From NCBI RefSeq assembly GCF_019649055.1, contig NW_026570227.1:496001-560000 (forward strand): a stretch of DNA of 64,000 bases. Direction: 5' to 3'. Position 1 is the stretch's first letter. Each line of letters starts with the position of its first letter. The DNA is from Paramacrobiotus metropolitanus. Taxonomy: Eukaryota > Tardigrada > Eutardigrada > Parachela > Macrobiotidae. The notes under the pieces are model-generated. The model was not told where the DNA came from. It did not search any database and saw nothing but the letters and a program-made list of their open reading frames with translations. This document shows, one piece after another, positions 19,740 through 60,897 of this stretch. A program made the position numbers and the translations under genes.

Positions 19740-19784
19740 CGCCCAGGCAGTCGCTCCGCGTGTGGCGGAGCGACTGCCTGGGCG
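19740..19784. repeat. Perfect 20-bp hairpin with 5-base loop
   Basis: CCCAGGCAGTCGCTCCGC (19742-19759), loop GTGTG, then its exact reverse complement (19765-19782), extended by two further pairs. The arm sequence is exon sequence of the membrane-protein family, so the hairpin arose by an inverted local duplication. Confidence 0.95.
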
Positions 19785-19860
19785 GGCACGTTTGCATTTG
19801 GCTCCATCGCAGCATTAAAGCGGACGGTGGCAAGTTTTATGTACATTGCAAAAATAAAAC
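19740..19860 (-). pseudogene. Membrane-protein family copy D, start fragment with snap-back
   Basis: The minus strand from 19807 reads MEPNANVPAQAVAPP, matching the first residues of copies A, B and C (MES or MEP, ANAP, AVAPR). The bases upstream of the ATG (TTTAATGCTGCGATGG) also match the family's leader. After AVAP the sequence turns back on itself: a 20-bp arm (19740-19759) and its exact complement (19765-19784) are separated by five bases. Only about 20 codons of the gene remain. It is a broken duplicate over 30 kb from the cluster at 50-61 kb. Confidence 0.6.
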
Positions 19861-25626: not shown

Positions 25627-26414
25627 CAAAGCATACTTGGTCAATCCATCAAAAACTGGATAAAATTATCTTTCATGTGGCCACCGTGCTCGAAACCTGC
25701 GCATTTTTGATGGATGCGCTGAAGTACTGTATTTTGGATGACTGAAGTATTTTTAAACAGCCACTTCTGCCGTTTCTCCGTAGACTTGTGTGCTAACTCA
25801 GCGGAGCTCCGTTTAGCTGATAAGATCAGCTTCCAGGCTTTGTACGAGTATATTCTAATGGCTCTGATTCAGCATAAAATCTGCGCACTTATGTTTATGT
25901 AATCACAAAAGCCAAGTTACAGTTTCACAGCTAAACGCTTGAAAATTATTATGTTCGATAAACTAATAAGCATTGGAAAACACGAAGTTGGTTTGTGACT
26001 TAAGTTACAAAGAACGCAACGGAAGATTTTTTTTCGAAATACGGAACGCGTTTGATTTCACAACATTTCGGCTGACCTGGCAGCCGCCTATGATGCGATA
26101 CGCCGTTGAGGCAATGGACAGCTACTGGCTGCACATACAAAGTGGTGTAGTAACTACACCGCGGATTTGAAAGAACGAACATCGTTTGTACATTTACATA
26201 CAACTATACTAGTGAAGCGAGCGTTAGCAGTTAGCCGGCATGATTTATTGATTCATGCTGATGATTTGCGAGCACTACTGTACATACGATCAAAAAGCAA
26301 CCCGTAATGAAAATAAAGTTTCGTAGTTAGTTTTGTAGTTCGTGGCTTTTGTTCGCGGATTTTGCCGCGGCTCTTGATGCTGTACATCTGACGAGTACAT
26401 TTTTTCCTGCTTAC

Positions 26415-27161
26415 CGATGTAAACCTTTTGTTTAATCTTGTCAATGCGGAGGGAACGCGAAGATATACCAGAGAAATCCGCACTCCGCGAGAAAGCTGAC
26501 CGCATGCCCAGCTTCTGCAGCGTGCTTTCCATGTCGATGCTGTGTTCTATGCGAAATTTCGGCAACTGGATGGTTCCGTACGAGATCGGCTGGAGAGAAT
26601 CCAGCGCCTTATTCAGCAGCGCGGGTGTCAAGGCTCTCTGCAGATCCGACATCGCTGAACCGGGTGTCCACGTGGCCGAGCGGGCATTCTTTCCCGGGAG
26701 AATGAAACACGCGCTGGACAGTTCTTCGCCGTACCACAACTGCAGGAACCGTGCTCCTCCCAGTTCCTTACTTTCGTAATACCGGCACCGCGTCATCGCA
26801 TGCATGGTGTCCACCATCACCTGGCTGCCGTCGGCCAGGTTGAAGGGTTTCTTTACCGTGTGCTCCTCGAAAAATCGACAATCCCATTCCGCTTCGAAGT
26901 ACACGGAACTGATCAGTATGAATGCGGTATCTGCGTTTATGTCTGACGAAGTTAGTGTATCGCGAATTGTTCCGGATGTGTGATTCTCCACAAACTGATT
27001 GATGCGCTGTACAGCTTCACTAGGTTCGGTGCGGAAGTGAACAGGCTGACACACAGTGTTGAATAAAGTGCGGAGAGTATCGGTGTATTCGGCGTTCAGA
27101 GGGAGCTCTTCTTCAATAAATCCTGCTGTGGCTAGGAATAATTTGTAGTTTTCAACAGGAG
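26415..27161 (-). CDS. Serpin gene, exon 2 (core of the fold)
   Basis: This exon carries residues 91 to 339 plus one base of codon 340. CTTTTGCAG precedes 27161; the first two bases CT complete a Ser codon with exon 1. The translation starts PVENYKLFLATAGF and continues through the helix E-F region, then TAFILISSVYFEAEWDCRF, the serpin strand 3A and breach region (usually NAIYFKGxW-xxxF), then FILPGKN and the strand 2B/3B region ending KVYI. It ends at donor G|GTAAGC (26415/26414). A GTG inside the exon (27054) can look like a start but is not one. In-frame and undamaged throughout. Confidence 0.92.
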
Positions 27162-27325
27162 CTGCAAAAGCATGAAAGTAGAAAGTTGCAGCAGAAAGAA
27201 CAAAAACAAACAGCAGAACAGTAAGCTTTTAAAGCGAAGCACTTTAGCAAAAATGTCGGTAACGTAGGAAATAATTTCGTCGGCTAGGTGTAAATTATCC
27301 AATTTTGCTTTCAGCCCCGATGCGC

Positions 27326-31167: not shown

Positions 31168-31726
31168 CTTCGGAGGGCAGCTACTCTATTTTAATTATCT
31201 TTGAACAGTTCCAGTGACTTTTACCTTGACTTGAGTTTTTAAAGCTATCTTTCAGATGTTGTATTTTTTCTCAAAACAGCCTTTGAGTGAGAAATATTTT
31301 ATGAACTCAAGGCTACTGAACAACGCATGGCCATACGGGTTCCATTTTATGTTAAGTAAGATTTAACGGAGTTGACAGAAACACTGTTTTTGGCTTTTAG
31401 CTGCTTTCGAACGCGGAGACAGTCAGACAGTGGTGGCGTGGTCGGGTTTACAATTGTGTTTTCTCCACTTTTCTCGTAGACCTGATATGTTGGCTTTTTG
31501 GAAATTTTCTTGCAAACCTCCGAATCTCCCCAGAAACTAACTTGTTTCTGCAAATCTACAAACTTTGAGCTTTCGAATGACATAAGGACATTTAGCGTTT
31601 CTTTTCTTGTGTCGCTCGAAAAAGGGAGGCACAAATGGAATTTTGTTAAGTCTTGTTTTATTAATATATAGGATATACGAGAAGATAGATAGATATACAA
31701 AGTAGATTACAAATTTTTGAACATAC

Positions 31727-31997
31727 ATTTGGTGGACGAGTGGTTTTTATCCTCGTTCTTCTTCATCTCAGTCAGCAACGCGCAAAAGTGCTCCACAGAG
31801 TAGTCTTTGTTGAGACCTAGCAAATCCGCCATTTGTTGTCGAGTCTCTCCCCTTGCACCAAGATAAGCCATGAGAACGGCGAGTTCTGCACATATCGGGG
31901 ACCACAGCGAGTTTATTTCGTACGATCGTTGCGCGCACAGGCTTTTGTAGACCGCCACACAAAAGTCTAAGCGGTAATTAGTACACATTTGTGCCAT
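31727..31997 (-). CDS. Serpin gene, exon 1 (N-terminus)
   Basis: First coding exon, 90 codons plus one base. ATG at 31997 begins MAQMCTNYRLDFCVAVYK, which is helix A of a serpin. NSLWSPICAELAVLMAYLGA and RGETRQQMADLLGL match the family's SPxSI...LGARGxT motif. There is no signal peptide, so the product is probably intracellular, like clade B serpins. It ends at T|GTATGT; T plus the CT of exon 2 gives Ser. The three exons together make 1203 coding bases (400 residues plus stop), the normal serpin length, with no stop or frameshift. TTCTAG a few bases upstream of the ATG could be the acceptor of a 5' untranslated exon. Confidence 0.9.
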
Positions 31998-33408
31998 GAT
32001 TCTCGTTCTAGAATAAGGAAAGAAGCAGTGTATCTGTGCTAAAAATTAAGCAAAATGTCAGTGTTAGAGTCTTTAATATTCTGTCGTTAAAAAATCGGTT
32101 TGTCCGACAATAACGTTTTATATCTCATGTCAAATACAAAAAATATTCCCAGTGCTGAATTTTCTTACACAAGATTCCAAAATAATCATGATCTTACAAG
32201 GAATGGCTGTGCATACGCAAAATGCAATGGAATGGATGTTAACCAGTGCCGCCTAGCCTATTCAGCTCGCATGACGATTTTAAGAGCATGAAGTGTGCCA
32301 CTGGAAAAATTTTCATCGACCGGTGTGTGTGGAATGTCCCCAATACACCGTACATTTGCTTGCTCCCTCTCAGACACTCTCACTCTCGCCGTGTCTCACG
32401 ATCATGTGGACAAAGTACTCGTACAGATAGCATTATGCGTAGCTCCGGCTGCTTACAAAATTCAATGATCGATTTTCTGCGCAGGGCGTAACTGGCACGG
32501 TGTGCACAGTGTGCACAGTTTTCAGTGTATGTTTTCTGTAACGATATAGTGGATGTTGTTACCATAGTGGATGCTGCATTATTGTACATATTTCGTGCTA
32601 GCTGTAGCAGTACACTGCAAACCGACACAGGACTCCGGACGGTGTGCAAATAGGAAGTCAAACTTCGGACATGGCTGCACTGGTACAGCCATGGCCCATG
32701 AGACACGGTTAATGATTATTAATTTTAAAATACATTGTATAAAGTTACTATAAACATATGAGGCTCTTCCAGCATAATGCTGTTATCTCCGATGCGACTG
32801 ATTCTGCACCGGACTGGAAAATCCGATCCAATCAATATTTTGGACTGAACGGATTTTACAGGTTTTGTTTGAAGCGGATTCGAATTATGTAGTTTTGATT
32901 TTTGAATACTAAAACTGAGAAACGGATTGAAGTTAAATTAAACAAAAATAACAAAAACTTAACATACGCATTGACCGTTCCTGTTAAGTTTTTGATGATA
33001 AATTGAAAGTAGTAGTATTATTAGTCAGCACTCAACAGTGCGCTTAATATTACTGCGTTGGTAGAGCGTCAAAAATTCAGAAAGATCATCAACATTTAAG
33101 TTCAGATCGCTGTTAGCCGGACACTTTGTTCTTTGTTTTTCAGCCATTTCGTGTCTTTGAATTTGAAATTCTTCCCATCAGTACTTCGCTTTTCCTCCAA
33201 ATATAATTCGGTCACTTTATTTATACAGTTTCATATTTCGGTCACCTGGTAACAGGAATTCTAAAGCGGGAGAGGCCCAAAAAACCGGCCTTTTACGTCT
33301 ACAATTTTTGACAAATAAAAATTAAATCAGTATTTGGCCGATTTCAACACTGTGAAAGGCAGTCGCACAGTGCGCCAAAATCTTAAGATGAAAATTAATA
33401 ATAATGCA
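31998..33408. other. Upstream of the serpin, no gene seen
   Basis: Probably holds the serpin promoter, but no convincing TATA box was placed. Short frames only. A GTGTGCACAGTGTGCACAG direct repeat sits at about 32500. Confidence 0.4.
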
Positions 33409-41975: not shown

Positions 41976-42328
41976 TTATTATGGATCTGTAGTGTGTGTA
42001 CTTGATTTCGTGGTGCACGGGCACGATGAAGTTGCCGTCAGAAGATTTTTTTTATACTGTACAATACTTCACTAGGTTTCAGCTCTTATTCTAGCACTTT
42101 TTACATATTTTGACATTTATTATTTTTATTAATTCTCTCATTGATTTGAATAATTCTGCTAGTGCAAACAAACTATTGTGGTACTAAGCCTGCACTTTTT
42201 GAAAACGAATTTTTGCTTATTACTTGCTGGTGAATTTTTTTGTATTTGACTAATTTGAGACATTTTTAATTTATTTTCTTTGCTTTGCTGGTGATATTGG
42301 TGGCAATAATTTTTTGGGGATTCTGCAG

Positions 42329-42857
42329 ATTCTTCCTCTGGAAACGGGCATCCGCGCCGCGTACGGCAAAGGAACGGACGGCGAGCAGAAGTTCATCCAG
42401 AATCTGGCGCTCTTCCTGACCACCTGCACCAAGGAGCACGGCCAACTGATCGAGAAGACGCCGCAGCTGCATCCACAGCTGCTGGAGACGCTGCGCTACG
42501 TGCTGCTCATCTCGCCGGTGGAGGAGATTGAGATCTTTAAGATCTGCCTGGAATTCTGGAACACCCTGGCCTCCGAGCTGTACCTGGAGCATGCCTTCAA
42601 CGCTTACTCCACCTCCCACGGCGCCATCTTCTTCCCGCCCTCGTTGATGAAGAGCGGCGGATTGGAATCTTAAGCGCAACCCACTCAGCGTAAATTCTAC
42701 GACGGGGTGCTCTCGGACGTCAGAGGCATTATGATCGCGCGGATGGCCAAGCCGGAGGAAGTCCTGGTGGTGGAGAACGAGCAGGGCGAGGTGGTGCGGG
42801 AGTTCATGAAGGACACTGACTCCATTAATTTGTACAAACGTTTGCGCGAGACGCTCG
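42329..42857 (+). pseudogene. XPO1: Exportin-1 pseudogene, exon from ILPLETGIRAAY
   Basis: After TTCTGCAG the frame reads ILPLETGIRAAYGKGTDGEQ, KFIQNLALFLTTCTKEHGQL and EIEIFKICLEFWNTLASELY, closely matching exportin-1 around human residue 300 onward. A TAA at 42671-42673 interrupts the frame, which then continues in phase with MAKPEEVLVVENEQGEVVRE and DSINLYKRLRETL to donor G|GTACGT. Strong GC bias at third positions, as in an expressed gene, shows the decay is recent. Confidence 0.92.
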
Positions 42858-46296: not shown

Positions 46297-47829
46297 TCAA
46301 CTTGAATGCCAGGATAAGGCTGCCTCCGCGTGTGTGGTGCCGACACTATACAGCACGGTGTCATCCGCAAAGCATTCGGCGTCGAGTCCGGGTAGCATGT
46401 CGCTTGTGTACAGCGTGTAGAGCACCGGAGCCAGACGTGTTCCCTGTGGCACACCCGATTGCACTGGCAGCCAGTCTGATACATTCCGGATCATCTTAAC
46501 GCGCTGTTTTCGGGAAGTCAGGTAGCTGTGAAACCATTTTAGCGCGCCACCACGGATGCCAATCGCGTGTAACTTTTCAATCATTTTCGCATGGGAAACA
46601 GAATCGAATGCCTTTTTAAGGTCAATTAGGCATAAAGCTGTAATTTTCCCAGCATCCATTGTTTTCCTCCACTTTTCGGACAGTTTCAACAGCAAGGTTT
46701 CGCACGAGTGTCCGTCCCAGAATCCGGATTGGTTCTCAGAAAGCACATTCCCGGTCTTTAAAACGGCTACAAGCTGGTTTTGTGCAACTTTCTCGAAAGC
46801 TTTCGATATGTTGCACACCAGTGAAATTGGTCTGAAATCATCCGGCTGTCGTGCATTGGTCTGCTTCGGGATGGCGACTACGTCAGCGCTTTTGAAAATC
46901 GTTGGGTACACTCCTGCTTTCAGGGATGCGTTAATCATGATCGTTAGCGGTTTAGCAAGATACTGGTTCACGCCTGCCAGGATTCTGCTAGGCATCCCGC
47001 AGGGACCAGCGCTCTTCTTCTGTTTTGCCATCCCTTTCAGCAAAAGTGCAACAACGTCAACTGATACATCGGTAAACCTGCAAAGCAATGGGTTAGTGTC
47101 ACCGCCCTCGGGGGGCATGCAAGGTACAGGGTGGTCGTTTCCGTGCAGTCCCTGTGCAACAAAATACGCATTCAACACGTTGGGATCCACTGATGGCTCT
47201 TCTTTTTCTTTGTATTTACGAAGCAGTCTGGCTAACTCCCGCCATGTTCTTTCGGTTTCTCCTCTGTTCTGAGCGAAGAATTTTCGCTTTTCATCCAGGA
47301 TCATCGAACACACGGCTTTCTTCATAGCCTTAAACTGCTTATCGTACTGTTCATATTCTGGCGAGTCACGGAACTGACATCTGAGGCGGTAAGCTTCATT
47401 CTTTCCCTTGATCAATGTTTTTAGGGGCACGCTCATCCAGGGGGGCTCTTTTTGACGGGTTCGTAACGGGAAACAATGATCGACAATATTGTTTAATTCC
47501 TGGATATAACTTGAGACAAAATCGTCAACTGGGACATATTCGTCGTAATCACTGTACTTTTCGGAAACTTCTCTGATTCTTCGGTGGAATTCTTCTGTGG
47601 TTGTATTCTTCCATAGGCGAAACGTAATGGTTTTGTGAACGGGAATTGCAGATTTGTACGACGCGACTGTTTTGCACAAACGATGGTCCGAAAAACTTAC
47701 GTCTTCTGGTGGCGCTGAGGTGTAACTTTCCGCTGGTGAACACAACATGATACCGATCTTCTTCGCACTATTCAACATTGCGCCGTCCTTTCTTCGGATT
47801 CGACATGCCACTCTCGTGAATCCACTCAC
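46297..47829 (-). pseudogene. LINE endonuclease end and reverse transcriptase
   Basis: A 510-codon frame. SFSDHRL near the start is the SDH motif of the apurinic-type endonuclease. RT motifs follow in order: DDFRPISLVCNISKAFEK, then CLIDLKKAFDSVSHAKM (motif A), QSGVPQGTRLAPVLYTLYTS (motif B) and CFADDTVLY (motif C, the two catalytic Asp). Just after motif C the frame is lost; the thumb region (DKATTWFAANTLCVNEKKCK) continues in a second phase at about 46200-46310. The start shown is the first ATG, not the original protein start. Confidence 0.92.
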
Positions 47830-47840
47830 CTTGTCTCACC

Positions 47841-49833: not shown

Positions 49834-50159
49834 TTAGCTCAACAGGCCGTAAAAGATAGGCGCTACACGAGCGACAGCCGCTACTACATAGAAAAAGTTA
49901 ACAAGAGAATCTAACAAACCACAACCATACAATAACGTAAATAGTATCACAGGCAAAACTAATACACAACCGTCACAGCGCCTACTACAAAAGGAAATCT
50001 TGAGGAAGCCAAGCATGCCAAACATGCCAATCATTCCAACAACCTGAGCCAACACCATCCATAAACCCCAAACGGCGTTTGCATATGCTGATGTTCCCCA
50101 CAACCATCCTTTAACCTTTGATCGCGGGCAGGTGCATATGTATCTAACCGTATCGGAAT
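49834..50159 (-). CDS. Membrane-protein family copy A, exon 3
   Basis: Final exon, entered at TTTTCAG|AT (50160/50159) in the phase left by exon 2, 108 codons to a stop at 49834. Reads DSDTVRYICTCPRSKVKGWL, then two or three hydrophobic helices (AVWGLWMVLAQVVGMIGMFG and VLPVILFTLLYGCGLLDSLV), and ends VARVAPIFYGLLS. Exon 3 of copy C ends FARIAPIFLGLLS with GLW, AQ and VGM at the same places, so the C-terminal membrane part is the conserved core. Function unknown. Confidence 0.8.
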
Positions 50160-50226
50160 CTGAAAAGACGCGAGGATCAACATTTACATACTGTAAGTGA
50201 GCAGCAAAAACAATTTGGAACTGAAC

Positions 50227-50427
50227 CTAAATCAAGCCCGCAGTGAATCGTAAAGCACAACTTCCGCAAGGCAGTGTCCTTGGTGTCGTTAACAGATACA
50301 GCGTTCCAGTCGTATCTTGCCGAATCGTTGTTAGCAGCCCCGATCCACTGCTCTACGGAGAAATATTCTTTGGGGATTGCAACGGTTGCGTTGTTAAAGC
50401 TCAGACTTCCGCTTCCGTCTTCGTGAC
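50227..50427 (-). CDS. Membrane-protein family copy A, exon 2
   Basis: 201 bases, the same length as exon 2 of copy C. Acceptor GATTAAG|GTCAC, donor G|GTTCAG, both phase 1. Reads HEDGSGSLSFNNATV, VEQWIGAANNDSARYDWNAV and NDTKDTALRKLCF. Three N-glycosylation sequons (NAT, NDS, NDT) and two Cys are conserved with copy C, so this segment is probably the external loop between the first and second membrane helices. The 201-base match with copy C is the strongest evidence that the gene is real. Confidence 0.85.
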
Positions 50428-50569
50428 CTTAATCATCATCCAAACAATTAGAAAACAGTATAAGGCTAAATATTATACAGCCGGTGGAAAGCTTTGACTG
50501 AACTATGGCATTGATAACCTTCAGAACAACGTTTTTAGTATAAACAGAGAGAGACTGCTCCATGTCCTC

Positions 50570-51612
50570 GGGTCGGCCTACTTTACCTTTGCCGCCCTTT
50601 GCCTTTTCACTTTGCCTTTATCAACTTCGCCTTTGCCCGCCTTTTACCTTTGCCTTTTCGATTTGCCCTTTTCTACTTTACCTTTACCTTTGCCTTTGCC
50701 GCCGTGATTACCTTCACCGTCAGAAAATTATCATTAAAAACATTTTCAAAGGTGTATCTCTTTAATTAATCCTTTAAAAATAAATAATCGTCGCCATCAG
50801 CCGTTTCAAAAATGAGACATTTTTATGATAACTGATGCGTTGAAATTAAGCATGCATTTTTGTGCCGCCAGTCTGGATAAAGTTAATCCAGATTGAGGGC
50901 AAGAAAATCATAAATCTGCTAGAAAAGTAAACCATTCACAGATTATACGGCCCCAGCCGACAGCAGAAATAGGCGGCATAGTTGCCTTGTAGGATGCGTT
51001 GCACCGATACGGGTACTGTAACTGATTTATTACTTTGATTTTATTTTAACTTTCGATAACAAATTTTACGGAGTTTCTAAAACACCAGGAAGAGGAAATA
51101 CATTGTTAGTCAGCGAGTTCTTTTTATGCTATACAGCGTGTACAGTATTCGCACAAGTTACGATTTCACAATCAGCGATCCCAGGAATACTTGTAATGGT
51201 TTATTTTTTGTGCGTTTGTATATATGGGGGGGCAAAACTAGGCATCTTCCACCGTTCCCCTGTATTGCTGCCGTCACCCGCCTGGAGTTTGACGTTGTGG
51301 TTGAACATGGCGCTCACGTACCGCGCCAGATTTAGCCGTATGTATTGCCATAATTCACACTCCAGACGGATGACGGCAGCAGAACAGGGGAACGGTGGAA
51401 GACGCTTAGTTTTGCCCCTTATATGTACGCGCGACCTCGAAATCGCAAAACTGCCAGGGGGAAGGTAATCATGGCGGCAAAGGCGAAGGTAAAGGTAAAG
51501 TAGAAAAGGGCAACTGAAAAGGCAAAGGTAAAGGGCGGGCAAAGGCAAAGTTGAAAAAGGCAAAGTGGAAAGATAAAGGCAAAGGGCGGGCAAAGGTAAA
51601 GTAGGCCGACGC
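50570..51612. mobile_element. Foldback transposon FB, copy 3
   Basis: 1043 bp. Inverted TTTGCC/TTTACC arms at 50570-50725 and 51465-51612, outer ends GGGTCGGCC and GGCCGACGC, flanked by an exact 8-bp target duplication ATGTCCTC (50562-50569 and 51613-51620). The interior (51060-51200) matches FB copy 4 in reverse. A separate 193-bp MITE is nested in it at 51226-51418. Inserted in intron 1 of copy A. Confidence 0.9.
51226..51418. mobile_element. Nested MITE PT, copy 1
   Basis: Inverted ends of about 60 bases: GGGGGGGCAAAACTAGGCAT, CTTCCACCGTTCCCCTGT and GCTGCCGTCACCCGCCTGGA against the mirrored right end. FB copy 4 has the uninterrupted sequence (CTATATATGTACGGGCGACG) where this copy has the insertion, so both element and insertion point are certain; AT-rich flanks (TATATAT left, TTATATG right) make the duplication length ambiguous. 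Relatives at 52559-52722 and 61565-61735. Confidence 0.9.
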
Positions 51613-51672
51613 ATGTCCTCTTAGACTTAGCCAGTTAGCTTACAAAAGGTTCCGGCACACCGAGAGACTCAC

Positions 51673-52099
51673 AGGCAGTTGTTATCATGAGGAAAATCCA
51701 AGTGGCCAACGCGGCGTGAAGGATCATCCACCCGATGTATGGTGCGATGAATATAGCACGGTCACGACAGATTTTAGCATCATCTGACAACGGTCTACAG
51801 GAAAAACTCTTCCAATACCGACCAGGAAATGCAGGACATCGTCGACGGCAGCCTTTCACTGGCAGAATGACATCATTGCCAACGTAGCGCAGAGTTTCGT
51901 TGACGTCGGGCTTCTTGAGCAGCTCTCTGGTTCTGCCGTGCACGACGTCCAAGACACCGTTTCCGTACTGCTTCGCTATCTTACACAGCCGCCATGCTCG
52001 ACCTATAGAATGTGCTTCGCTGTCGCCATTGACAGCGATCTGGAAGGGTGCCACACGCGGAGCGACTGCCGAGGACGGCGCGTTAGCAGTTGACTCCAT
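51673..52099 (-). CDS. Membrane-protein family copy A, exon 1
   Basis: Starts at ATG 52099 (MESTANAPSSAVAPRVAPFQ), 142 codons plus one base, donor T|GTGAGT. The soluble N-terminal part contains GVLDVVHGRTRELLKKPDV and VILPVKGCRRRCP, and ends with a membrane helix (PYIGWMILHAALATWIFLMI). No signal peptide, so the N-terminus is probably cytosolic. With exons 2 and 3 the protein is 317 residues with no lesion. Copies B and C share this exon, including the bases before the ATG. No family recognised. Confidence 0.82.
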
Positions 52100-52558
52100 G
52101 GCAGCAATAGAGCGGAAGGTTACAATTTTAATATTATTATTTAAATTGCGATACCGCTTTGACAAGCCTAGAAAAAATCAAAAAAGTTATAGCTCTCGGT
52201 AATCATGCACTTGACTATTTCACAAACGTGAATCAGTTGCGCTTGGCTGTATCATGAAATTTGTTGACGGTTTGCATCAATTGCATGGTATGCTGTGCGA
52301 GCTCGTGTTTCGCCATTACACGTAGTAGTCAGACTAGCTCATCGCGGGCCGTGGATGGCTGCGGGCAAATTGCATTTTTTTTACACCACGTAGCAAACAC
52401 TGTACTACTTTGTACAAGCTCGTTTCAGAAGCCGTCGAACACTTTGAGCAAGCAGTAAATAGCAACCACGTGAAATATCGTATCTTGTGGATGGAAACGC
52501 TATGGTCACAGTACTATGTTATACCAGATGCAGCGAACACTTTGCCGCATAAAACTGT
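52100..52558. other. Upstream flank of copy A
   Basis: TTCCGCTCTATTGCTGCCATGG at the start codon is shared with copies B, C and D. The homology to the longer leader of B and C fades quickly. No promoter element assigned. Confidence 0.4.
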
Positions 52559-52722
52559 CGTACTGTACCCATACGTGATGTCAGTTGCGCTGCAGTTTCT
52601 GCCGTCAGCCGGCAGGTGTATGACGTTGCGGCAGTACATATGACTAAATCAGGCGAGGTACATAAACACCATGTATAGCCACAACTTGATACTTCCGCCG
52701 GCTGATGGCATCAAGTACAGGG
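52559..52722 (-). mobile_element. MITE PT, copy 2
   Basis: On the minus strand it reads GTACTTGATGCCATCAGCCG, then AAGTTGTGGCTATACAT and ATGTACCTCGCCTGATTTAG, and CCGGCTGACGGCAG, in the order of the copy at 61565-61735. CTGCCGTCAGCCGG and CCGGCTGATGGCA form its inverted arms. Confidence 0.65.
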
Positions 52723-54654
52723 AAGGCTGGCATGCGCTACTAACATCCACTCGTATATATTGTAGAGCTCACCGATTTTAGATACGAGAAGTTGTAGACG
52801 CAAGCTTGTCGACAGATGCATAACGCAGCCAGTGGGCGAACGTGCAACAGAGTCCGGTGTACAGCCAAAAGTTCCGCATTACTCGACGTTCTAACAATGC
52901 GTGCGGAGGCCAGCAAGCAGCAGCCAGCGATGGGACCTGACAGTGGTGCAAGTTTGTCTAGCGGCAACAAAAAGGAAAAAAAATACCTCGCAGGCTCATA
53001 GTAGGCCTTTTTACGGCACCGGTGAATATGGAGTACACCGCTCTAAGGAACCAATTACGAGACGCTAAATGTCTTCTTTCCGGCTGCTATGAAAAATACT
53101 CTGTTCGGTTAGATGGTTTTGGTGCCGTTAAAAACAGCGAAATTGTTTGCAGTAAATAGCTTCGACTCCCCCAAAATGGAACGTTTCGGTTTCAACGAAA
53201 ATGCTTGTCATCGATTTTCTGCCGTATTAGTAACACGAGCCTGTAAGGGCCTGTATGCGCTGGTCAAGGAAGATAAAAATAGAAAAACTATTGGAAAGCC
53301 TTGTAATAAATAATGCCCAGTGGTCCGGGAATTTTTCATAAGATGAGAGATTTACTGGCACCGCATTTGTGCTAAATTGCCAATGCACCAATCGATGCAT
53401 TTTCTTAGTAAACCAATAAATTCAATCGTATGCCAGCCGACATTTAATACGTCGTTGACCGTTAATTGCATGTATACTCGAAACAATTGGCGCTGTTGCT
53501 ACCAAACCACTATCTAACCGGCAGAATCGAACTGATTCTTCAACCAGCGCAGCTGTGCTGCAGATCCGCACAAAAAGCATAAAACGTGGGGCTGGAAAGT
53601 TTCAACAACCAGCGATTAGTCACTGTGTTGAGTCATCAATTACCGCGAGGCTGCCCTGCCTGTTTTTAAGCTTGTGCCACAGTATTAGTGCCGCTATCCT
53701 GGTATCATGGAAGCGATTTGCTGAAGAAACATGAGAAATCCGACACGGAACTCGCTTCGCTGAAAATAATGCAAATAAAAATTTCCGACGGATGCTATTC
53801 ATCAACGAGACCTTTTTATTGCCGTGTGTTCACTACTGTGTTGTTATCGTTTTTCGTGTATATGGCCATCAGAAAGTACTTAGTGGTTTATTTCGTGTGA
53901 TACAATAGAACATGCGCGCAGTACGACGGTTTTATGCGGCAATGTGCACACGTCATCCCCTACTGTAGGTATTACACTGCAGTCCAACTTACAGTAAACT
54001 GCGAAAAGGTGTTACACTTCTGTCACTACAAAAAAACGCGCAGGCAGGCACTTATCTGTACTCAAAGAGGCAAATTCGTGACTGGCCATCGGTCTGCTGG
54101 TATTAACACTTACACTTGCGCATTTCCCAACGAAAACCGTCGGCCGATATCTCGAACGAATGAGGAAAAAATTTCAAGAATTCTGATACCAAACAAGCTG
54201 TTCTTTATGCGATTTACTAGAATAGTGACGCTTCTAAAGTTTTTCGTACACATAGCAGTGAGTCGGCGAAAACAGGTGAGAAACAGAGTTCGATATAAAA
54301 TAGTACCATTAGCCACCGTTCATTCGGTTCGATCCATTTCCTACGTCAACTTCTACTTCATACCTATTTCCTCGACCCAGTAAAATAAGATTTGCATCCA
54401 CGGCTTGGTTTCGGTTTAAACACAGAAATCCCATGCATTGCTGCAACACACTAAAATCGCCGGATTTTCTCTTAGATTTCACAAAAGGTGACCTATTTGG
54501 TATGGAAATTCTTGAAATCTTTTTCTCATTCGTTTGAGATATCGGTTGATGGTTTTCGTTGGGAATTGCGCAATACAGTTTGTTGGTCTAGTGCATTTAT
54601 TTTGATTGGTCATTTGGTCACGGGCCGAATGTAACAGGTTTTTGCAGTCTGCTG
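52723..54654. other. Long intergenic stretch, no gene seen
   Basis: Plus-strand frame 53934-54383 (149 codons, no ATG) has no recognisable domain. Repeated CATTCGTTCGAGATATCGG-like words at 54150 and 54535 are inverted with GAAATTTCAAGAATT / AAATTCTTGAAATC nearby, suggesting a 400-bp inverted-repeat remnant. Nothing else supported. Confidence 0.35.
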
Positions 54655-54998
54655 TATACGCTATTTTACGCCGCCTCTCCGTTGCGCGCTTAAAGTGTTT
54701 ACCATCTGAGAGAAGAGCTTATACATTTTTACGGTATACAGTATGGTGCGAAAAAAAGCAACGCGCCCGCAGCGATTCACGGTGAACTAGTTTGTCAACT
54801 ACGTGTGACGACAAAACAAGAGCTCGCACATGATGCGAACTTGCAAGAAATTTCATCATACAGTCAAGCTCAACTGAATCCAATTTTGTAAAATAGTCCA
54901 GTGCATGTCTACCGAGAGACTAAAATTACTTTACCGGGGCTTTTCAGAGGGGTATCTCGAATTAAGTAAAAATTGTCACATTCTGCTCTATCGCAGCC
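54655..54998 (+). repeat. Leader shared by membrane-family copies B and C
   Basis: Matches 58500-58837: ATTTTACG-CGCCT, GCGCGCTTAAAG / GCACGCTTAAAG, GCCCGCAGC, ACTAGTTTG-CAACTACGTG, GAGCTCGCACATGATGCG and AATTTCATCAT-CAGTCA occur in order before each ATG. It probably contains the promoter; no clear TATA box, though TATACAGTATGG / TATAATTATGG occur at the same place. Confidence 0.75.
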
Positions 54999-55837
54999 AT
55001 GGAGCCAAGTGCGAACGCGCCCACTCAGGCAATAGCCTATTTCAGATTGCATACGGTAGAGGCTCCGTACATAGAATCGCACGGCGTCAGATAAGCAGTA
55101 CGTTGGCAGGATGAAAACTGCTTCAGATCTTTGTGCGGTTGCACTTTGGTCACGTACAGCAACGAAAAAATAAATCGAGTCGAGTGCGCGCGAGGACGTG
55201 ACCACCCTGCTAACGGTCGGCGGTCTGAGTGCTCAAAAAAGATCCACGGGCAGCATACGCTGGCCTGCCATTCACTCATGTGTCTAAGCCGTTGCAAGCA
55301 TCCGCGTAAGGCAGATAGATTTTACGCGTCACCGCACGACGCTAGGTTACAGCTGCTAACGTCGCGAACGGACGTAAAACAACCCGGAACCGAAGGTTCC
55401 ACATGGAACCGGAGCCGAAACTAACACAAAACGTGCAATCTGAAATAGGCTAATCACTCCGCGTGTGGCGGCCTTCCAGATCGCTGTCAACGACGATTGG
55501 GAAGCGTCTCCTCCAGGTCCAGCATCGCTGCTGTGTAAGCTGGCCACCCAGTACCGATGTGGCTTCTTGGACGTCGTGCTAGGGAAAACCAGATAGCAGC
55601 TAAAGATACCCGACGTCCAGGAAGAGCAGCAGCACGTTGGAAATGATGTCATTTCGCCAGCGGAAGGTAGCCGTCGACGATGTCCTGTATTTCGTTGCCC
55701 GTGTTGGCAGCGTGTTGACTGCAGACCGTTGTCTGGTGGTCAGAAATGCATTATCATCTTTGGTATATTACACATCTCGTTGGTAATCTCGCTGGGCACG
55801 CTGGCCACATTTTTCTCCTTATTGAAAGACACTGCAT
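54999..55837 (+). pseudogene. Membrane-protein family copy B, exon 1 only, MITE-interrupted
   Basis: Starts MEPSANAPTQA at 54999, is broken at 55034 by a 418-bp MITE, and resumes at 55455 with TPRVAAFQIAVNDDWEA. Otherwise the frame is that of copy C (LLCKLATQYRCGFLDVVLGK), with one TAG after GKTR at about 55590. It continues NDVISPAE, RRRCP, CRPLSGG, then the membrane helix, to donor T|GTAAGT (55837). Exons 2 and 3 were not found downstream; FB copy 4 follows instead. Conserved splice donor and few lesions point to recent loss. Confidence 0.85.
55034..55451. mobile_element. MITE in copy B, 18-bp TIR
   Basis: 418 bp. Perfect 18-bp inverted ends AGCCTATTTCAGATTGCA, flanked by AAT on both sides (55031-55033 and 55452-55454). 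Removing the element and one AAT restores the exon reading frame of the family (A-I-T-P-R), which confirms the boundaries. 3-bp duplications are produced by PIF/Harbinger-type transposases. Non-coding. Confidence 0.93.
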
Positions 55838-55962
55838 GTAAGTCTATCGGGCTGCCTTGATTTTTGCTGGTGCAACTGACAGAAATCCGTGATGTGCATG
55901 GCCTCCACCGTAACGGTTAATTGGGTGGTCAATCGCTTACAGGGATTTTGAAATGCGAAAGC

Positions 55963-56317
55963 GGGTCGGCCTACTTTACCTTTGCCCGCCCTTTGCCTTT
56001 GCCTTTCCACTTTGCCTTGTTCAACTTTGCCTTTTCAGTTTGCCCTTTTCTACTGTACCTTTACCTTTGCCTTTGCCGCCATGATTACCTTCTTCGTTTC
56101 AATTTTCCGATTTCGACGTCGCCCGTACATATATAGTACACACGTATAAAAAATAACCATTATGAGTAACTTATCCTGGGATAGCTGATTGTGAAATCGT
56201 AACTTGTCCGAATACTGTACACGCGGTACAGTTTAAAAGGAATTCGCTGACTAACAATATCTTTCCTCTTCCTGGTGTTTAAAAAACTCCGCAAAATTTG
56301 TTATCGAAAGTTAATTA
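55963..56317. mobile_element. Foldback transposon FB, copy 4, truncated
   Basis: Left arm from GGGTCGGCC at 55963 to about 56110, then interior sequence that is the reverse of 51060-51225 (ATTGTGAAATCGTAACTTGTC and CAATATCTTTCCTCTTCCTG). Homology stops near TTATCGAAAGTTAA at 56317 and no right arm follows. It lacks the MITE nested in copy 3. Confidence 0.85.
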
Positions 56318-58499
56318 CGAATAACTTGCACTGCACTGTATTACACATTGTGACAGCATGCAAACTTTTAATTGTTGTCTGGCCACGCCCCCTTGACGAT
56401 GGCAGCTAAGAATATTTTTTACTACAATAATACACTACCATTTTACAAAACCTGAGAATTTTTTGAATTTGGAGGCGGAAAATGTTCCCTGGTAAGTAAG
56501 TATTAACGCAAACGAGAGTGGGCCGGAATAGCGAACCGTAATTCTTATCTCCACTACAAAGGTCATGAAACACGTCCAAGTTGTACAGCTGTACGTGCAT
56601 GACGATTGTACGTCTTCGCAGTCCGCCATCGTCTTGAGCCCAGAGTGCTCTGGAAGCCAAGCAGCGTTCTTATTTATCACCACCGAAATGGTTAAGCATT
56701 TATACAAGGTCTGGAGAAGCGGGATTCTTGTCTCTTTAACCTGGTTGACTTTTGTGAGCTGTTTCCGTGGTTCAACCTGTAATATTGTAGCAAACGCTCT
56801 GAGTTGCGCTGATTGCTAGTAGTGTTTCATTAGGCATGCAAACAAAACATGGTCGCACATTGAAGTAACTGCGACTGGTTTTGAACTGCAGCACCTCCAC
56901 ATCAGCGCCTTCGTTCGGGATCGGTGAAGCAGTCGAATACCTTCCCGTACCGCTTTTTTGTGAAAAAGGCCTTCGGAATGTACTCTGTGAATAAATATCC
57001 TATTCCAGATTGCCCAGTCCAGGTTCGTACGGTTCTTCTTCCGCACGGAAGCTGAAGTTACGGGTTGTTTCCCCTTCCGTGCGCGACGTAAGTCGCTGTA
57101 ACCTAGCGTCTGAGGGGTGACCCGTAAAAACTTAATGGACGCCGTACTTTTGCATGTACACTACGGCGCCTCTAACTTATGCAATCTGAAAAACCCTTTT
57201 GTGTAGTACGACAAACCTGCGTACACTATGATGGTTTTAAGTGGCGCGTTGTACAAGGCCATTTCGTGTGTCACAGATCGACTGTTTGAAACAGAATTTT
57301 TATGTATGGACAGCACGCTATGATGTGATATGCATCTTCATAGAATACTCCACAGCTCTGGAGAGGGTTTGCAACGGAAGGAAGTGGCCAGATAATATTT
57401 GCCACTTATTGATGTGATAAGGTACTTCCATCTCTCACAAACAATCAAAAATGATGAGCAATGCTTGGTGTTCAGCTGATGGCGTATTCTCTTACCTTCC
57501 ATATCTCTGGATCAGAAATCACTGCTGAGTGCTTGAGAGAGAACTCTTTTTTAATGAATACCTGTCATCTTGAATTATAAGCAGCTCTGGAATATTTGAT
57601 CTTTGGAAGTTTTCTTTGGAATGTGGAAGTTTACATAAAGGTCGAGGTTAGCAGAACGATTTCATTAGCGGGATGTTTGCCTACCTCACCTCAGCCAACT
57701 CTCAAAAGCTTCTATGTTTTTCTAATATTACGCCGCTTTTCATGCCGTCTGAAAGAGCATTGAATCTCTAACATATACAAAACTGTTGGCTAAGGATGTT
57801 ACCTTTCAAACTTCAAGACTGCAAGTGCAAACAGTTGTTGCATAAATCGTCAATGACGCTTTAACATAGACGTTCTGTTCTGTCTGCTCCTTTTCAACCG
57901 AGATTCCTTCCAAAATCAAAATCAGACCTGGCCAACGGGTCCCGGTGTCACGACCTGGCGCATTTTTATTAGCAGCCAGGGAGCTGCTCAAACGCAGACT
58001 GATATCAGAATATCAACAATGACACAAACAAGCTAACCGGCTGTTGCCAGGACGCTACTCCCGGCTTGTATCTTTACTGTCTGTATGCAACACATAAAGC
58101 CCCTTGAGTACGGCGGTGATCCTTGCTTTCTATTTTTCCCGCAAGTTCAGAGCTTTTTGAAATGTGACGAGACTTTCAAACTATAATTTTTGCAAATTGT
58201 TTTAGTGAGTTCTTGGTTTTGTTCATGGAAACCAGTACAATCGTCTCCCTCCCTTCTTCCACTCTACAAATCAAATCATAGCACTCACATTACTGCACTC
58301 AGTCTTACACCACTGTTTTGTAATTTTTGTATTGCACAGCTGTCTTCATTTGTTTTTACATCCCATCACGCTGTTTTTGTTGCATATTTGCTGCACTATC
58401 CACTGCTGTAAGGGGACACTACCCTTGCACGAAGACATTAAATTTTCCATTATTATATTAACTCGCTGCTGTAGCCATGAAACTGCAGCACAGCTTATT
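56318..58499. other. Long intergenic stretch, no gene seen
   Basis: No exon supported. A frame at 56565-56819 and its minus-strand partners are open but unrecognised. It separates the broken copy B from the intact copy C. Confidence 0.4.
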
Positions 58500-58837
58500 T
58501 AATGTTTTACGTCGCCTATCTGCTGCACGCTTAAAGAGTTTGCCTCTGAGACGAGCTTCTACATTTTCTGCTATAATTATGGTGTGTGAAAAAGCAGCTC
58601 GCCCGCAGCCATCCACGGCGAGCTAGTTTGACAACTACGTGCGATGACAAAACACGAGCTCGCACATGATGCGGACCAGCAACAAATTTCATCATGCAGT
58701 CATGCTCAACTGAATTCTATTTCGTGAAATATCAAAGTGCATGGCTGCTCAGAGTTATACTCACTTTAACTTCATCGGGCTTTTCCCCAGGTATCTCGAT
58801 TTAAGTGGAAATTTTTACCTTTAGCTCTATTGCTGCC
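58500..58837 (+). promoter_or_regulatory. Leader and probable promoter of copy C
   Basis: Same sequence as 54655-54998 at about three quarters identity, directly before the ATG. Conservation in a region without a frame suggests shared control sequence, but it may simply reflect recent duplication. Confidence 0.4.
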
Positions 58838-59255
58838 ATGCAGTCGAAAGCCAACGCGGCCACCCTGCCAGTCACTCCGCGCATGGCCCCCTTCCAGATC
58901 GCTGTTAACGACGACAGCGAAGCGCATATTGTTGGTCCAGCATCGCTGTTATGTAAGCTGGCCACCCATTACGGATGTGGCTTCTTGGACGTCGTGCAAG
59001 GGAAAACCAGAGATTTAATGAAGAAACCCGAGGTCAACCAAGCGCAGCACCACGCTGAAAGCGATGTCATTTCGCCAGCGGAAGTCAGCTGTCGACGAGG
59101 TCCTGCGTTACGTCGCCTATGTTGTATGCGTGTTGGCTGCAGACCATCGTCAGGCTGTGAAAGATGTTTGATTATCTCTGGTGCAATATACATCTCGCTG
59201 GTGATCCTGCAAGGCGCGCTGGCTACCTTTACCATCCTATGTTTTTCCACTGCAT
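58838..59255 (+). CDS. Membrane-protein family copy C, exon 1
   Basis: Starts at ATG 58838 (MQSKANAATLPVTPRMAPFQ), 139 codons plus one base, donor T|GTAAGT. Residues 21-100 are soluble, with CGFLDVVQGKTRDLMKKPEV and a Cys/Arg-rich part (SCRRGPALRRLCCMRVGC). Residues about 111-137 are a membrane helix (SGAIYISLVILQGALATF). With exons 2 and 3 the protein is 310 residues and undamaged. Three to four membrane helices in total; no enzyme or channel motif is recognised. Confidence 0.83.
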
Positions 59256-59945
59256 GTAAGTAAGTCTTCGGGGGTGTCGTGACGTTTAGCAGGTGCGCCT
59301 TGGTGAAATCCGTGATGTGCAGCCGCGTGCCAAGCCAGACGTTAATTGTGCTGCGTGTTGAGATGGTAGAGCACGTTATTCCATGTTAGAATACTTAGTC
59401 TTAGCATTGATTACACGTATTTATAGCGTATCTGGTAAAGTCTTTATTAAAGATTTATGCGGGTCAGCTAATTAGAAAAATGACAATTTAGGAAAACAAA
59501 TTAGGAAAATTAGAAAAGGCTGTTTTACTGTTAGGATACGAGTACTTACCGTCCTCCATCAGTCATGCGGCTTCCCACCGCCACGTTTGCCGCTCCAGTG
59601 CAAGTAGCGATTGAAATGAAATATGGCACTGTCGCTAAATGCACGCCATGCCTATTAATTGAACGTTGAGGCTGCTGATTGAACATCAACCTTGAAGTGT
59701 TTTTGTTGTAACTTTGGAACTGATTTGAATGTCACGCTTCGTTTAGTTTTTTCAGGTTTATAAATTATTGAAGTTTCATTTAAAAAAAATAGGTTTATTG
59801 CTTTATGCATGGACTAATACGTTATGTACACTTGAAGTTATCAACGCTATAGTCGCTTTAGACATCACTATCGACCTTATAATTATTACTATCTTTGATT
59901 TTCGTTGGATATCTACTCATTTGGACTGATTTTGTGCTGGATCAG
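59256..59945 (+). other. Intron 1 of copy C
   Basis: 690 bases, GT...ATCAG, phase 1. No transposon recognised inside. Confidence 0.75.
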
Positions 59946-60146
59946 GTCACGAAGACGGAAGCGGGTTTCTGACCTTCAGGAATGCAACGGTTGAAATTCC
60001 AAAGCAACATTCTTGCGTGGAGCAGTGGATCGGGGCTGTTACCAACGATTCGGTAAAGTATGACTGGAATACGGTATCTACCAACGACACCAAGGACACT
60101 CTCTTGCGAAAGCTCTGCTTTTTCATTTACTGCGGCCCTGATTCAA
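59946..60146 (+). CDS. Membrane-protein family copy C, exon 2
   Basis: 201 bases, phase 1 at both ends, acceptor GGATCAG, donor A|GTACAG. Residues 140-207: C-HEDGSGFLTFRNATV, VEQWIGAVTNDSVKYDWNTV and NDTKDTLLRKLCF. Sequons at Asn152, Asn173 and Asn186 and Cys at 140, 163, 197 and 202; all sequons are kept in copy A. Probably a glycosylated external loop. Confidence 0.85.
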
Positions 60147-60583
60147 GTACAGTAAACTGTTTTCGTTTTCTGTGGTGTGCAAGTCTTTTTTTCTGTTGAA
60201 CGTAGATCCATGGTATTATAGCGTATATGACTAATGATGTACCAGTGTTGTATGAGTAAACTGTGTGAGTGTAATCTTAAATCAAAAAACCTATCCCATT
60301 TCATTTAGCCTTACCCAAACACTCATTGTTTATTCGCCTATAAAATGGCAGACTGTTACTGTTTACGAGAGGAGAGAAGAGATTAATTCTTACGACTTCT
60401 AACGAACGAACGATCGACCGAACGTTATTAAACTACTGCCGAAACCCGTTGTTCTTGCTTTCCCTTTATCCTTAATTCCTACACCATCATAACTTGACTA
60501 CAGTTAGATCAAGTTAGGCGACTGGGCCGCCGGAAAGGCAATCCAGTACGTAGCGTTTCAGCCTACGTTGTAGTATTTTACAG
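60147..60583 (+). other. Intron 2 of copy C
   Basis: 437 bases ending TATTTTACAG. Contains CGAACGAACGATCGACCGAACG. No other content. Confidence 0.7.
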
Positions 60584-60897
60584 AAGGCATCTGCCCTCTG
60601 TCACAAGTGGAAGGATGGAGGTCTAATTATGCAGGTTCATATCATTTCGACGCAGTAATGGGCTTATGGTTGGCGGTGGCTCAGTTTGTTGGGATGATGG
60701 TTTTTTTATCATGGTTTACCGAGCCGTGTGCAACATGTGCACAACAAAATGCACGTGAAGGCGGCGGCTTTATTGCCTGCTTTTGGATTATATCTTTAAT
60801 GATATGGATCACTTCATGCATGTCTCTCCTTTGGTTGTTCTTTTTGATAGTTGATTTTGCTCGTATTGCGCCTATCTTTCTTGGCTTGTTGAGCTGA
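60584..60897 (+). CDS. Membrane-protein family copy C, exon 3
   Basis: Acceptor TTTTACAG|AA; the phase joins exon 2 without a stop. Reads GICPLSQVEGWRSNYAG, then hydrophobic helices MGLWLAVAQFVGMMVFLSWF and FIACFWIISLMIWITSCMSL, and ends FARIAPIFLGLLS before TGA at 60897. The N-terminal few residues of the exon differ from copy A, so the exact junction is less certain than that of exon 2. Confidence 0.8.

Follow-up and report, generated by a model that had tools for sequence, protein, structure and literature searches.

A multigene family of probable three-pass membrane glycoproteins in the tardigrade Paramacrobiotus metropolitanus

Orphan multigene families are common in animals, and the described systems closest to the one considered here are multi-pass membrane proteins. 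In the claudin/PMP22 proteins (PF00822, PF13903), a cysteine-bearing outer loop joins helix 1 to helix 2 and a short inner loop joins helix 2 to helix 3, the first outer loop carrying a W...GLW..C...C signature and the outer part a four-stranded sheet fold; tetraspanins (PF00335) have a CCG motif in their large outer loop, and DUF4728 (PF15860) is a small multi-pass protein. In this study we have analysed a window of 64,000 bases of the genome of the tardigrade Paramacrobiotus metropolitanus (bases 496001-560000 of a 2.89 Mb contig), which holds two intact genes, A and C. In keeping with a eutardigrade, a stretch of CAHS, one of the families named as tardigrade-specific (PMC5531438, PMC9145152), matches 17 places in this genome, the best at 80% identity and an expectation value of 3e-40. 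Genes A and C belong to a large and apparently unnamed family of what are probably glycosylated membrane proteins, scattered through the genome of this tardigrade. With claudin/PMP22 the family has in common the order of a first helix, a cysteine-bearing outer loop, a second helix, a short inner loop and a third helix, but it shows no clear fourth helix, its window group carries a long N-terminal tail, and by eye no GLW..C is seen in the ectodomains, where LRKLC....C or FMRKWC....C is found instead. Tetraspanins resemble it in their several passes, in the cysteine-bearing outer loop and, by eye, in a helix with Q..G after Cys...W, whereas no CCG motif was seen on inspection of the ectodomains of the assembled models.

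Genes A and C and their wider family

Both genes are laid out in three exons. In gene A, on the minus strand, exon 1 (51673..52099, with the ATG at 52099) encodes the N-terminal region and the first transmembrane helix, and is homologous to exon 1 of C and of two further copies, F and B; exon 2 (50227..50427, 201 bases) encodes the ectodomain with three sequons and the cysteine pair LRKLCF.I.C, and exon 3 (49834..50159) supplies the last ectodomain cysteine, two transmembrane helices and the stop. Gene C, on the plus strand, follows the same plan, with exon 1 (58838..59255) running from an ATG at 58838 to the donor T/GTAAGT, a 201-base ectodomain exon 2 (59946..60146), and an exon 3 (60584..60897) that again provides the last ectodomain cysteine, two transmembrane helices and the stop. 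Rebuilt from the window, A is open from ATG to stop over 317 amino acids and C over 310, or 309 if the alternative acceptor at 60587 (+3 bases) is used, and the introns of both are GT...AG and in phase 1. The two proteins are 51% identical, their second exons match by tblastn with an expectation value (E) of 4e-31, and both contain the sequons NAT, NDS and NDT as well as the C-terminal AR.APIF.GLLS; each has the three exons, the 1/1 phases and the four ectodomain cysteines that define the family. Support for the junctions of A and C comes from comparison among the copies. A preliminary description of this DNA, made from the sequence alone, had presented A and C as undamaged paralogues alike in exon number, intron phases, sequons and C-terminus, and all of this has held. 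It had also singled out the second exon of exactly 201 bases, a length that is correct for A and C but not a rule of the family, in which exon 2 spans 183-201 bases across 16 models (script boundaries; F has 210 bases when delimited by hand).

The family extends well beyond the window. Searches of the genome (169.8 Mb in 533 contigs) with C, K1, J1, N3, A and M1 as queries revealed at least 31 copies of exon 2 on 10 contigs (hand count), which fall into four diverged groups with a common three-exon plan; the figure is a lower bound, the searches scoring the best candidates only. The copies are found on contigs C7 (six), C69 (one), C201 (two), C21 (seven), C273, C53 and C98 (one each), C36 (nine), C241 (two) and C138 (one), and the count omits a decayed copy on C21 (1149743), a marginal one on C36 (732477, E 0.019) and a 27-residue match on C9. 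The window's group comprises A, B, C and D in the window itself, E (576-580 kb), the orphan exon 2 H (624 kb), F (675-677 kb) and G (764-766 kb) elsewhere on the same contig, and I on C69. Group J is a pair on C201, group K a tandem array at 1120-1150 kb of C21 with single copies on C273, C53 and C98, and group M a cluster on C36 (663-685 kb and 731-775 kb) with further copies on C241 and C138. The idea of a single cluster, put forward when only the window had been read, is not borne out by this spread over at least 10 contigs.

The kinship of the groups emerges from profile comparison. With hhalign, group K matches the window's group at a probability of 97.9 (E 3.6e-13, 222 columns) and group M matches the other groups at 98.0 (E 2e-13); as controls for the latter, 20 column-shuffled profiles gave E values of at least 0.049 and probabilities of at most 1.1, and the reversed profile an E of 0.22 and a probability of 0.3. 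In a tree of 11 members without M, the window's group and K each occupy one side of a branch, with support of 99/99 and 100/100. The profile and tree set consisted of these 11 members, E and G being represented by exons 2 and 3 only, and later of 4 members of M in addition; assembly was confined to the loci of the profile, tree and model sets, and the fetched stretches L074 and L077 were left out of the profile.

The gene plan recurs throughout the 16 models. The first donor GT stands exactly at the predicted phase-1 site in 15 of them, being lost in E, and the remaining three splice sites can be assigned to phase 1 in every model, although phase 1 is partly assumed there, as the script considered phase 1 only and took the nearest site, with the first donor at one fixed place and the other three sites sought within 60-90 bases. 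Twelve models (A, C, F, I, J1, K1, K3, K5, N1, N2, N3 and M2) have an uninterrupted reading frame between ATG and stop. M1 and M4 are modelled without the beginning of exon 1, and at the remaining three splice sites the scripted models of C, F and I deviate by a few residues from those made by hand or from what alternative sites would give; the hand-made profile set departs from the scripted models by +1 residue at exon 2 in K5, N1 and N2 and by -3 at exon 3 in N3.

Comparison with known families

Pfam scans of the members (11, 1 and 8 scans, some members being scanned twice) returned chance-level matches only, with best E values of 0.053, 0.2 and 0.022, and a scan of A and C alone gave no significant family match. 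The strongest of these weak matches, each to one of eight core members, were to a YgaP-like family (0.022), DUF4383 (0.029) and Atthog (0.071). NCBIfam scans of the members remained at chance level as well (best E 0.056), profile searches of PDB sequences gave nothing better than E 0.11 and 4.8, the other PDB searches yielded no significant match either, and a search for relatives in viral and other genome contig collections (profile A2) produced 15 and 9 pattern matches, among which there was no relative.

Genome scans with models of tetraspanin, claudin-2 and DUF4728 served both as tests and as positive controls. The idea of a tetraspanin arose from the Cys...W...Q..G pattern before helix 2 and was dropped after the profile tests: PF00335 has 38 listed places in the genome, none of them at a family locus, and is absent from the matches of the members up to E 10, while the hhalign probability of the family against three tetraspanins of the same genome is at most 1.2, two of those tetraspanins compared singly reaching 94.6. 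The profile of group M gave a probability of 0.1 against the same three. For claudin-2 (PF13903, the model used for the genome test) 13 genome places were listed and for DUF4728 three, again none at a family locus, and no claudin/PMP22 model appears among the matches of the members. Because the genome matches of these models lie at no family locus, we do not file the family under tetraspanin, claudin or DUF4728, the last of which it resembles in being a small multi-pass protein.

No description of the family was found in searches of the open-licence literature. One report mentions an expanded, deeply conserved and uncharacterised transmembrane family, OG004022, of which two further tardigrade species have 5 and 9 members, and lists DUF4728 among panarthropod families (PMC5531438); OG004022 may be related to the three-exon family. 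A connection with the male-biased gene regions of another report (PMC11191345) was weighed and set aside, as the scaffold names used there could not be assigned to the contig numbers of this genome. The preliminary description had recognised no known family, and its view of an undescribed one is supported within Pfam, NCBIfam, PDB sequences and the open-licence literature; a strong match to a channel or tetraspan family, which it had named among the possible counter-evidence, was looked for in Pfam, in PDB sequences and with the genome profiles and was not found.

Architecture, constraint and possible function

A and C are best explained as belonging to a tardigrade multigene family whose products are three-pass glycoproteins of the cell surface. 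The region ahead of helix 1, of about 55-115 residues, is basic (by eye), and the N-terminus is therefore most likely cytosolic. Intron 1 interrupts the codon of a cysteine that comes after helix 1 and is the first of the ectodomain; exon 2 encodes most of the ectodomain and in most members carries RK[LWY]C[FY]...C near its end, and exon 3 begins with the fourth cysteine, usually has GW as well, and continues with helices 2 and 3, joined by a short loop that often contains a cysteine, and a tail. All eight representatives chosen from all groups share, without exception, the four ectodomain cysteines together with one Asp and one Lys, and among the 11 members without M the ectodomain accounts for 11 of the 12 invariant columns, the twelfth being Gln 240 in helix 2. 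Hydropathy defines three hydrophobic regions (overlapping segments merged by eye), the last of which is long in A, F and C, and a structure model of exon 3 shows a short helix and then two long ones (residues 19-55 and 62-102), at a mean predicted local distance difference test score (pLDDT) of 63. On these grounds we favour three passes, with the N-terminus inside and the C-terminus outside. The topology proposed earlier agrees with this in its single helix, sequon-bearing loop and further helices, which are most likely two rather than three; the cysteine richness of its soluble N-terminus does not generalise, the cysteines far from helix 1 being confined to the window's group and not a feature of the family.

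The ectodomain exon is also the constrained part of the protein in the window's group. Pairwise NG86 estimates of the ratio of nonsynonymous to synonymous divergence (dN/dS), taken with no significance test and over pairs that include the damaged copies E and G, amount there to 0.21-0.32 for exon 2 (six pairs; exon 2 of A gives 0.30 against C and 0.22 against F), 0.43-0.56 for exon 1 (three pairs) and 0.40-0.93 for exon 3 (six pairs). In group K, with 0.26-0.40 for whole genes and 0.21-0.56 for exon 2 (five pairs), the contrast is not clear.

As a guess, to which we would give a probability of about 0.4, the products are oligomeric surface proteins that act through the ectodomain in contact or membrane organisation. 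The N-terminus would stay in the cytosol, with helix 1 serving as a signal anchor, and the ectodomain, held by two disulfides and N-glycosylated, would be anchored by helices 2 and 3. Outside group M, the conserved helix-2 glutamine would help the subunits to pack, and the short loop between helices 2 and 3, often with a cysteine, would lie inside and may be palmitoylated. In the plasma membrane, the ectodomain of such an oligomer might act in cell-to-cell or cell-to-matrix contact, a role similar to that of claudins or tetraspanins, and this is the least certain step; the copies would differ in their helices and perhaps in the place or time of their expression.

Several observations weigh against this proposal. 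The helix-2 glutamine is not conserved in group M, and exon 3 is barely constrained in some pairs (C/E 0.93, A/F 0.85), which is odd for packing helices; in K, moreover, the range of values means that exon 2 is not throughout the most constrained part. The structure model of exon 2 gives four strands at a mean pLDDT of 42.7, which is unusable, and no ectodomain fold can be taken from it. Single-sequence links between groups are weak (K1-C E 0.005, J1-M E 0.016, M1-J1 E 0.10), the unity of the family being drawn from profiles of 4 to 11 sequences, and copies B, E and G are broken or frame-shifted.

The number of tandem and dispersed copies, their turnover and the probable surface location of the ectodomain would also suit a receptor or recognition protein, for instance of gametes, chemosensation or immunity, with ligands that differ from copy to copy. 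Selection on the ectodomain exon is, however, purifying and not diversifying (dN/dS 0.21-0.35 in 9 of 11 pairs, two K pairs giving 0.55 and 0.56), and no known receptor domain was recognised, so that we hold such a role to be unlikely. It is rather unlikely that the family provides subunits of an ion channel or transporter, in which three-pass oligomers would line a pore and the disulfide-bonded ectodomain would gate or cap it: the multi-pass build, the outer-loop sequons, the large set of paralogues and the helix-2 glutamine, invariant across all 11 members from three groups, are as expected of one, but helices 2 and 3 evolve fast in the group of A and C, the opposite of what a pore would require, and no significant channel match was obtained in Pfam or PDB sequences.

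A highly diverged tetraspan branch (claudin/PMP22 or tetraspanin), with its last helix lost or shortened, is likewise unlikely in our view, even though the succession of helix, cysteine-bearing outer loop, helix, short inner loop and helix corresponds to the first three helices of a tetraspan, and one of eight members weakly matches Atthog, a tetraspan family. The tetraspanin and claudin-2 matches of the genome, all away from the family loci, the very low hhalign probabilities and the missing CCG and GLW..C motifs speak against it. That the open frames are non-functional, as decayed or mobile-element sequence, would be in keeping with the damage to B, E, G and fragment D and with the repeats and mobile elements in or beside several copies; the 12 open three-exon models and the signs of purifying selection across diverged copies make this highly improbable.

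The family behind the preferred reading of an oligomeric surface protein is one that we would tentatively describe, at somewhat less than even odds, as a large tardigrade-restricted superfamily of three-pass surface proteins, with four groups and at least 30 loci, an ectodomain of new fold on one symmetrical phase 1-1 exon and, in one group, a promoter element of its own. A coherent family with no known relative can be defined by a core of four cysteines, one phase 1-1 exon and three helices, and this definition makes it possible to look for members in further tardigrade species, to locate them in expression data already available and to test them by RNA interference. If the fold of the ectodomain is indeed new, it would represent a new animal surface module. 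The family also illustrates how genes with short exons can evade single-sequence searches, the link between groups being weak by sequence and clear only by profile.

Shared upstream stretch, copy turnover and neighbouring features

Upstream of gene A lies a stretch (52204..52379, minus strand) that is common to B, C, E, F and G; at gene C it is contained in the upstream region 58505..58837 (plus strand). A and C are identical there at 183 of 243 bases, compared with 285 of 418 in exon 1. When 201 bases of the C region (58590-58790) were used as a probe, the genome matched at six places, each no more than about 300 bases 5' of one of the genes A, B, C, E, F and G, and in the same search the stretch was not seen at I, H or D. 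We read it as a candidate shared promoter or 5' leader.

The damaged copies are in agreement with the copy turnover that had been proposed for the locus. B, on the plus strand, retains an upstream region (54664..54998) that is 79% identical to that of C, and its exon 1 is interrupted by an inserted element of 418 bases (55034..55451) whose terminal inverted repeats are perfect over 18 bases and flanked by AAT; the remainder of the exon (55453..55839), found by tblastn, contains an in-frame TAG, and the same program detected neither exon 2 nor exon 3 of B within the window, which confirms B as a broken copy. Fragment D (19754..19807, minus strand) is a match of 18 residues to the start of exon 1, and at a tblastn E of 0.005 it is weak on its own. 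Together with the orphan exon 2 H and the elements inserted in copies, these remnants fit an active turnover.

Inserted repeats are present in the introns of both intact genes. Intron 1 of A harbours a fold-back (inverted-repeat) element (50572..51610) with arms at about 50572-50718 and 51458-51610, and intron 2 of C a dispersed repeat (60214..60577) for which 23 further genome places were listed and which is missing from the 73-base intron 2 of E. Fold-back arms made of AAAGGCAAAGG-like units occur in both orientations at about 22.2, 22.8, 27.4, 28.1, 50.6, 51.5 and 56.0 kb of the window, one pair of them inside intron 1 of A and another run after B.

C and E agree at 410 of 416 bases (99%) of exon 1 while exon 3 has diverged (dS 0.34), a discrepancy that suggests gene conversion between these two copies. 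E departs from C immediately ahead of its first donor site. The first exons of E and G are frame-shifted, each matching in two frames, and in E the shift amounts to one base within a run of C. The published P. metropolitanus assembly is reported to contain a single-base misassembly (PMC11191345), and the shifts in E and G may for this reason be errors; they were left uncorrected in the models. A frame of 335 amino acids with no Pfam match lies between exons 1 and 2 of E (stretch L010, 2459-3466, plus strand). The orphan exon 2 H adjoins two frames that match DUF3987 (stretch L011, 4372-6185, minus strand), one above and one below the curated cut-off, which are perhaps a mobile element.

The window also contains serpin open frames on the minus strand at 26290-27228 (Pfam E 4e-55) and 31707-32045 (1e-10), which correspond to at least two serpin genes or exons, and, at 46297-47835 on the same strand, a retroelement-like frame with a reverse transcriptase domain (E 1e-27). 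An exportin-1 (CRM1)-like frame is found on the plus strand at 42254-42673, its best PDB match being residues 295-391 of exportin-1.

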